A stretch of DNA of 64,000 bases from contig JANXAC010000001.1 in NCBI GenBank assembly GCA_025061835.1, positions 1 through 64,000 of the forward strand, written 5' to 3'. The notes beneath the pieces were generated by a model. That model ran no database searches and was not told the DNA's origin. It worked only from the letters and a program-made list of their open reading frames with translations. A program made the position numbers and the translations under genes. Source of the stretch: Spirochaetota bacterium (GTDB taxonomy: Bacteria > Spirochaetota > Brevinematia > DTOW01). This document shows, one piece after another, positions 12,486 to 62,296 of this stretch. The stretch's first letter is position 1, and every line of letters begins with the position of its first letter.

Positions 12486-12558
<73 letters not shown>

Positions 12559-29387: not shown

Positions 29388-29669
29388 AATAAACTACCAC
29401 CAAACTAAACAAAATTATGGATGTGTAGTTAATATCTTTTCAACTGAGAAAACTGAAGTTTGGCATTTTTTAAGGTCAGAAAGTTTTTGATAAACCGACT
29501 TATAGTTTTTCTGTTAGTCATATATTCCTTCTTTTGCTTTCATTTTGCGAGGCAAGATAAGGTTCTTTCACATTAAATTTCTACAAACTCTCTTATAAAC
29601 TTCAGTTTGAAAATATTGCTAATCAACACTATGTTATTTTTAGTAGTCAAGTTTTCATAGGAGATAGTT

Positions 29670-30044
29670 ATGAAAGTTTATGTGCTTTTGGTTTTACTAA
29701 CTATCTTAATAGGAGGTTGCTATCTGTTCTTCTATCCAGGAGAGTATGAGGACCTTCTTTCAAGTCGCGATAATCGCAGGAACGAAGGAAACAATAGATC
29801 AGGAGGTTCTACTGGAGGCTTAACCCTAGAGTCAGGTGTTTATGTATCTACATATGGAAATGATACGAATAATGGTCTTACCAAAACAAGCCCCGTGAAG
29901 AGTATTCAAAAGGCAATCAGTATAGATGTAAGCAACAATCTGACATACATTTACTTATCAACAGGTGTATATACACGAGATAATGGACTTAGCGCTGAAA
30001 CAAGCGGTGTTGTGATAACGAACGATGGTATCAAGATAATATAG
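29670..30044 (+). CDS. N-terminal part of a frameshifted beta-helix lipoprotein
   Basis: 124 residues from an ATG with a good ribosome site (TAGGAGATAGTT). The lipoprotein signal is MKVYVLLVLLTILIGGC with Cys-17. A Gly/Ser/Asn-rich linker follows, then YVSTYGNDTNNGLTKTSPVKSIQKAI, the opening found in many right-handed beta-helix surface proteins. The frame ends abruptly at 30044 in GIKII-stop. In the other frame the sequence continues at once as IGGFNESFSS, the normal next segment for this family. A 2-base excess in ATAATATAGG explains the break. Taken with the following entry this is one gene, either a pseudogene, a phase-variable gene or a sequencing error. Confidence 0.7.
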   Translation: MKVYVLLVLLTILIGGCYLFFYPGEYEDLLSSRDNRRNEGNNRSGGSTGGLTLESGVYVSTYGNDTNNGLTKTSPVKSIQKAISIDVSNNLTYIYLSTGVYTRDNGLSAETSGVVITNDGIKII

Positions 30045-30088
30045 GAGGCTTCAACGAGAGTTTTAGTTCTATAGTTGGATACAGTGAG

Positions 30089-31438
30089 TTGGACGGCGGG
30101 GGAAGTTTGATACATATCATACTTGCTACGAATGTGAGTGATGTCGTCATAAGGAACTTGGTAGTGAGAGGAGGAAACGCGAATGGTGCTGGGATAATAA
30201 ACAATTGTGGAGGTGGGATATACTTTGAGAGAGTAACTCATAGTTTGGTGAGTAATGTTGTGTTGTCAAACAACAGTGCTAATAATGGAGGTGGAGGCAT
30301 GTTCCTAGACTCATCCAGCAACAATATTCTGATCATTACGGCGGTGAGTAATAGTGCTATGTTTGGAGGAGGAGTGTATTTATACAACAACTCTGTCAGT
30401 AATCTGGTGAGAGGGATAGTGAGTAGGAACTTTGCGAGTGCTAATGGTGGAGGATTTACGATTTTTGGCTCTTCGTTTAATGTTGTTGAAAGTCCTATTG
30501 TGAATAATCTTGCTGGTGGTTCTGGAGGAGGAGTATTTCTGCTTAATAATGCAAACGACAACACCATAAGTGGGAGTGTGTATAGCAACAGTGCTACAAA
30601 CAACGGAGGAGGGATATTTTTGGAGAGTTCTCACAACAACACCATAAGTGGAAGTGTGTATAATAACAGCGCTACAAACTATGGAGGAGGGATATATTTG
30701 ACCAATTCTCACAACAACACCATAAGTGGTAGTGTGTATAACAATAGTGCTAGTTGGTATGGAGGAGGAATATACTTATATTATTCTGACAACAACTCCA
30801 TAAGTGGAAGTGTATATAACAACATTGCTACAAACTATGGAGGAGGGATAGCTTTGCAGTATTCTCACAGCAACAACATAAGTGGAAGTGTATATAATAA
30901 CAGTGCTGCAAACAACGGGGGAGGGATATTTTTGTACTTCTCTGACAACAACACCATAAGTGGTAACCTGTATAACAATAGTTCAAGCTCTGGTGGTGGA
31001 ATTTATATACTCCAATCACACTGGAGTGTGATAAGAGGTAATATCTATAATAATTCGTCTCTTGTTAATGGTGGTGGAATATTGGTTTATAGTTCAACGA
31101 ACGTCTCAATCCTAGACTCATACATAACGAATAACTGGGCATCAACAATAAATTCAGTGATAAGCATATACTATCATGCAATAAACCTTTTAATCTCAAA
31201 CTGCTACATAGGCGGGAACAACAACACAGACTCAATAGGTATATATGAAAACCATGCTGATATAAGCACTCACACGATAGTTAATAACAAGTTTATAACG
31301 AATAGGTTGAGATACCTGTATAGGGAATTCATGGGTAGTAGATTGATAACCAACAATGCTGACTGGATCAATATCAACAATCCATCTCTTCTTGGCACAA
31401 CTTCTGGATCAACTAACAACACTTTGACAAATTTATAA
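30089..31438 (+). CDS. C-terminal part of the frameshifted beta-helix surface protein
   Basis: 449 residues in the frame that is open before 30041 through 31438. The listed start is a TTG without a ribosome site and is almost certainly not a true start. The protein is a parallel beta-helix: short rungs rich in Asn, Ser and Gly with NNGGGI turns. A block of six near-identical 26-residue rungs (NNTISGSVYNNSATN-GGGI) lies near residues 155-310. The family includes adhesins and polysaccharide-binding or -cleaving surface proteins, but no catalytic residues are evident. Together with the segment at 29670 it would give a lipoprotein of about 590 residues. Confidence 0.65.
   Translation: MDGGGSLIHIILATNVSDVVIRNLVVRGGNANGAGIINNCGGGIYFERVTHSLVSNVVLSNNSANNGGGGMFLDSSSNNILIITAVSNSAMFGGGVYLYNNSVSNLVRGIVSRNFASANGGGFTIFGSSFNVVESPIVNNLAGGSGGGVFLLNNANDNTISGSVYSNSATNNGGGIFLESSHNNTISGSVYNNSATNYGGGIYLTNSHNNTISGSVYNNSASWYGGGIYLYYSDNNSISGSVYNNIATNYGGGIALQYSHSNNISGSVYNNSAANNGGGIFLYFSDNNTISGNLYNNSSSSGGGIYILQSHWSVIRGNIYNNSSLVNGGGILVYSSTNVSILDSYITNNWASTINSVISIYYHAINLLISNCYIGGNNNTDSIGIYENHADISTHTIVNNKFITNRLRYLYREFMGSRLITNNADWININNPSLLGTTSGSTNNTLTNL
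30554..31018 (+). repeat. Tandem 78-bp coding repeats
   Basis: Six consecutive units beginning at 30554, 30632, 30710, 30788, 30866 and 30944. Each encodes one 26-residue beta-helix rung. DNA similarity is high across CACCATAAGTGGAAGTGT and GGAGGAGGGATA, so the array could expand or contract by recombination. The last unit is one codon shorter. Confidence 0.85.
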
Positions 31439-61952: not shown

Positions 61953-62094
61953 CAAAGTTCTAGAAAAGGAACTTTACACCAGAAAGAAGTTAGGTGGCCA
62001 AATGAAAGAAGAAAACAAATAAGAAATAACTTGAGCAAACTGTATTATACCCCACCTTCACCCTATTTCTTAAGCCCGAGAAATAGGATAACCT

Positions 62095-62290
62095 TCTTTC
62101 TGGGTAAAGCAGGTCTTCCGGCTCGTGGATCATCCTACTAGTCACCCTTCCCATCCTTCCCAGCGATCAACCAAGAAGGACAGTGGTTAGATGTGACTTT
62201 CGTCCCCACTCACGGCTGCGGGACCAGCGAGGGACTTTCACCCTTCTTCCCTTTTAATCCTTCTTCAGGAACTTTACCCTCCGAAAATCG
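62095..62290 (-). ncRNA. Cobalamin riboswitch
   Basis: On the minus strand the region contains the B12 box AGCCGGAAGACCTGC (62123-62109) and the upstream core GGGTGAAAGTCCC followed by TCCCGCAGCCGTGAG, both hallmarks of cobalamin riboswitches. It lies in the leader of the BtuD-like ATPase and TonB receptor genes. About 20 bases after the B12 box a perfect hairpin CCTATTTC...GAAATAGG (62062-62087) may be part of the expression platform, and a second hairpin hides the ribosome site 115 bases further on. No T-rich terminator follows, so control is probably at translation. Confidence 0.92.
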
Positions 62291-62296
62291 GAACCT

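Follow-up and report, generated by a model that had tools for sequence, protein, structure and literature searches.

The LIC10774/LIC10365 family surface proteins of Leptospira are of the DUF1565 type (PMC13066512, in the excerpted part of that source). The split gene described here, found in a 64 000-nucleotide stretch of a spirochaete genome (the whole stretch analysed, called the window below), shares with them a lipoprotein-type N-terminus and the first portion of the helix cap: its first part matches positions 7–108 (of 358) of the family model NF047854 with an E-value of 1.7e-5. The score, however, is 23.9 bits against an NCBI cut-off of 380 and the second part has no match to this model, and by the NCBI criterion the gene is not a member. 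One paralog matches OmpL47, a Leptospira family (NCBIfam). These Leptospira-family matches would suggest that the DNA comes from a spirochaete.

The second part resembles right-handed parallel beta-helix repeat proteins. It passes the cut-offs of PF05048 (NosD; E = 3.9e-18, 66.1 bits, cut-off 23.6), PF13229 (Beta_helix; 5.9e-18, 65.4 bits, cut-off 25.9) and TIGR03804 (parallel beta-helix, NCBIfam; 2.2e-11, 43.3 bits, cut-off 19.45), which bears out the beta-helix call of the original prediction, and its coils appear as a tandem array of 5.4 copies of a 78-base (26 a.a.) unit between 30558 and 30982 (plus strand; Tandem Repeats Finder). Assignment to NosD proper (TIGR04247) is unsupported, with 26.3 bits where the cut-off is 300. 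The single-sequence structure model is poor, with a mean pLDDT of 57; its best PDB match has an E-value of 0.13 and none is significant, though the top matches are mostly beta-solenoids. A sequence search of the PDB returned no match. The chlamydial polymorphic membrane proteins (PF02415) are also multicopy surface beta-helix proteins with glycine-rich GGG coils, and their family includes disrupted members. The match to PF02415, however, is below the Pfam cut-off (E = 0.0019, 18.7 bits, cut-off 20.6), and we have here a lipoprotein in which no autotransporter barrel is seen. A literature search listed no paper describing a comparable frameshifted beta-helix lipoprotein.

The two parts of the split gene

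The first part (29670–30044, plus strand; identified by sequence, tblastn and NF047854) comprises the signal peptide, the lipobox and the N-terminal helix cap. Its frame of 124 codons runs from the ATG at 29670 to a TAG at 30042–30044, with a ribosome-binding site AGGAG (29659–29663, plus strand) six bases 5' of the ATG and a lipobox IGGC within LTILIGGC, whose cysteine (residue 17) is encoded at 29718–29720; the N-terminal lipoprotein signal and ribosome site are thus as originally claimed. The second part (30041–31438, plus strand) encodes the glycine-rich repeats of the right-handed beta-helix in a frame of 465 codons that is open from before 30041 through a TAA at 31436–31438. The two frames belong to a single beta-helix surface protein, and a net +2 shift separates them. 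When searched separately by tblastn, both parts align end to end with one set of relatives, in which a single codon corresponds both to the residue that closes the first part and to the one that opens the second: the frame change lies at 30039–30043 (plus strand), where codons 30039–30041 and 30041–30043 stand for a single codon.

At this codon the frame runs on without interruption in all 17 relatives aligned there (10 from the window's own genome, G000, and four, one and two from G001, G003 and G004, respectively; both G004 genes carry breaks elsewhere). The given sequence therefore does contain a split, which is not due to chance, with the frame broken here and kept by the homologs, as in a pseudogene. 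Outside these 17 are L079 and L081, in which the region is missing at contig ends, and L084 of G001, which has other lesions in the region. The proposal of a gene split by a two-base shift, with one frame ending at 30044 and an overlapping one going on from 30041, is therefore confirmed. There are no further stops inside the two parts combined, i.e. the gene carries a single lesion.

It was also correctly noted that the second part has no start of its own: there is no ATG, GTG or TTG at a usable distance after the AGGAGG that overlaps the stop, and the earliest in-frame start codon (TTG, 30089) lies inside conserved family sequence. We therefore rejected separate translation of the second part. 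The AGGAGG itself is the product of conserved Ile-Gly-Gly codons, as the codon view of the relatives shows. Since no usable start and no recoding signal at the frame change were found, the probable product of the gene is a stub of 124 residues.

The gene family and its neighborhood

The window's genome (1.80 Mb in 55 contigs, 95.95% complete) contains many members of the family. Across G000–G004 we examined 38 family loci: 20 have a complete open frame, 11 have an open frame truncated by a contig end, six are broken and one is a remnant (L159 in G003). L169 and L170 count among the complete loci on the strength of the 1310 and 941 a.a. frames obtained for them in the whole-genome search. The broken copies are present in four genomes: the gene in the window (G000), L084 (G001, contig C72), L158 (G003, contig C18) and L087, L088 and L160 (G004). 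Their lesions differ in site and in kind, including frameshifts, nonsense codons and missing parts. L084 and L160 are located at contig ends, where assemblies are least reliable, and are weaker evidence of breakage.

The split gene adjoins a queE-like and a rodZ-like gene (the labels of these and of the other neighbor genes named here, including L25 and metE below, are our assumption from the appearance of their sequences). This pair is kept together in four congeners (G000–G003), and a different gene is found on the other side of rodZ in each genome where that side can be seen: the split gene in G000 only, a glycosyltransferase-like gene in G003 and an amylase-like gene in G002 (in G001 this side falls off the contig). 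At this locus, therefore, the split gene is accessory. A search with the rodZ-like protein in the contig collection found one distant relative only. In the Rfam scan of the window there was nothing at the split-gene locus, and the only matches were a tRNA gene (12486–12558, plus strand) and a cobalamin riboswitch (62091–62291, minus strand; 101.6 bits).

Explanations for the frame break

It is likely that the split gene is a recently inactivated paralog of a multicopy beta-helix lipoprotein family, and decay is the best reading of the locus. A short indel in the N-terminal helix cap would recently have knocked out a lineage-specific paralog of a spirochaete-type surface lipoprotein family. Ribosomes starting at 29670 would make the 124-residue lipoprotein stub and stop at the TAG; the 465-codon helix downstream would be left untranslated, as its frame differs from that of the stub and it has no start of its own. 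This reading draws on what is directly seen at the locus and in the family (the frame break, homology on both sides of it, intact paralogs and recurrent breakage of other members), and we infer from it that the break is in the DNA of the cell and that the stub is non-functional. By itself one broken paralog is of little weight and is an ordinary finding; it does show gene birth and decay at work in the turnover of this lineage's large beta-helix lipoprotein family.

The main rival to decay is a sequencing error or misassembly, in which the cell carries an intact gene and the break is an artefact (e.g. of collapsed paralogs or strains). We regard it as improbable, though worth keeping in mind: a single lesion in otherwise intact sequence, which we attribute to recent decay, is also expected from an error or from a minority variant in a mixed population, the location of L084 and L160 at contig ends weakens the case for recurrent breakage, and this multicopy family does disturb assembly, as contigs C6, C10, C11, C31 and C32 of G000 end within family members. 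But the longest exact tract common to the split gene and any of 18 tested relatives is 21 bases, which makes a collapse of near-identical copies at the break unlikely. Furthermore, the gene has no homopolymer of six or more bases, and coding is dense elsewhere in the window, with no other split pair evident among its ∼60 listed frames (by inspection, not by homology). The same limit of 21 bases bears on the suggestion that the gene is a reserve copy, i.e. a silent cassette from which expressed paralogs receive sequence through gene conversion. Other spirochaetes have silent donor cassettes, and the many paralogs here have a common repeat design; but no recent conversion is visible in tracts this short, and we rejected this explanation as scarcely credible. 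Programmed recoding, in which ribosomes would reach the full-length protein by hopping or slipping at the ATA codons, was rejected as well, for lack of both a signal and conservation, and is highly improbable. From the sequence, a peptidyl-tRNA could meet the same codon two bases on, and the AGGAGG overlapping the stop is like a Shine-Dalgarno sequence; however, this motif, with its origin in conserved codons, is at and after the stop rather than upstream of it, a slippery heptamer or a long A/T run is absent, and none of the 17 relatives needs recoding there.

The original prediction offered three causes, namely a decayed gene, phase variation and a sequencing error, and called the AT/TA run at the break a natural slippage site. 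Decay fits best among them; slippage that turns the lipoprotein on and off is a tempting claim for a surface lipoprotein family with recurring broken members, all the more as the change equals one dinucleotide unit, but it is unsupported and, in our view, very unlikely. The run at the frame change (30039–30043) has two units, and the window contains 911 AT/TA runs of at least two units (839 of two, 68 of three and four of four), 32 of them in the split gene, where several have three units and so are longer than the one at the break. None of the 17 relatives has a repeat tract at this codon, and the breaks of other members are of other kinds and sit elsewhere. Published screens ask for longer tracts: in the excerpted parts of the two sources, dinucleotide tracts are counted from at least five units in Haemophilus influenzae (PMC2651432) and from at least eight units in Neisseria, a screen in which variation was seen in none of the dinucleotide tracts (PMC5953494). 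With so short and common a run, no homopolymer, no tract in the relatives and a length below these thresholds, ordinary mutation is sufficient, and phase variation was rejected.

A dispersed element upstream of the split gene

The Correia repeat enclosed elements of Neisseria are short intergenic repeats that occur in many copies and are associated with promoters (PMC5039591, as excerpted). A noncoding element with similar features is found 64 nt upstream of the ATG of the split gene (29478–29605, plus strand; 128 nt, with boundaries taken from the alignment), and our reading of the alignment is that the element has imperfect inverted ends, another likeness to the Correia elements. The two are likened by features and not by sequence, and they differ in that the promoter is here just past the 3' end of the element and that the element is found in one genus only. 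Its covariance model (R1) has 46 matches, 14 in G000, 23 in G001 and nine in G003, and none in the 18 other genomes searched, G002 and G004 included; in this search the element is genus-restricted.

We left out three partial matches at contig ends and used the remaining 43 copies for position counts. A gene on the same strand starts 39–87 nt beyond the 3' end of the element in 26 out of 43 copies, and a divergent gene starts 39–90 nt from its 5' side in five out of the 38 copies with a gene called there. The 3' end of the element carries a AAACTTCAG box; in the window it is followed by a promoter-like pair, TTGAAA (29607–29612) and TATGTT (29630–29635), the box and pair spanning 29597–29635 on the plus strand and being consensus matches only. 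A sigma-70-like TTGAAA/TATAAT-like pair matching at least nine of 12 positions follows the AAACTTCAG end in 23 out of 26 copies (a count that takes the best of several placings, without a shuffle control); the copy in the window scores 8 at the position usual for the other copies, the pair at 29607 and 29630 being an alternative. The pattern AAACTTCAG-N(0–16)-TTGAAA has 14 exact matches in G000, as compared with one for the reversed pattern: two are those at 29438–29461 (minus strand) and 29597–29612 (plus strand) of the window, and 12 are at other places in the genome. A similar motif precedes rodZ in G003, where the element is missing, and to judge from these matches the AAACTTCAG and TTGAAA motif seems to mark promoters whether the element is present or not.

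For three genes (rodZ, L25 and metE) two species carry a copy of the element, and in all three the orientation is opposite between the species (compared regions: 29388–29670 of the window, L091, L092, L097, L100 and L155). The element is possibly mobile, regulatory or both. Its 46 matches in three congeners, most of which keep a set distance to the gene start that follows, would make it a promoter module specific to the genus, regulatory or mobile, and it may matter more than the broken gene. One could go further and regard the whole family as a contingency repertoire, in which frame breaks repeatedly silence copies that are afterwards lost or replaced, with some of them driven from this dispersed, possibly mobile promoter-docking element; the split gene would then be a freshly silenced copy. 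We consider this extended scenario speculative and unlikely.

In five copies of the element in G001 (L085, L095, L131, L133 and L136), a similar short ORF on the minus strand overlaps the 5' end of the element, so the repeated unit in that genome may exceed 128 nt.
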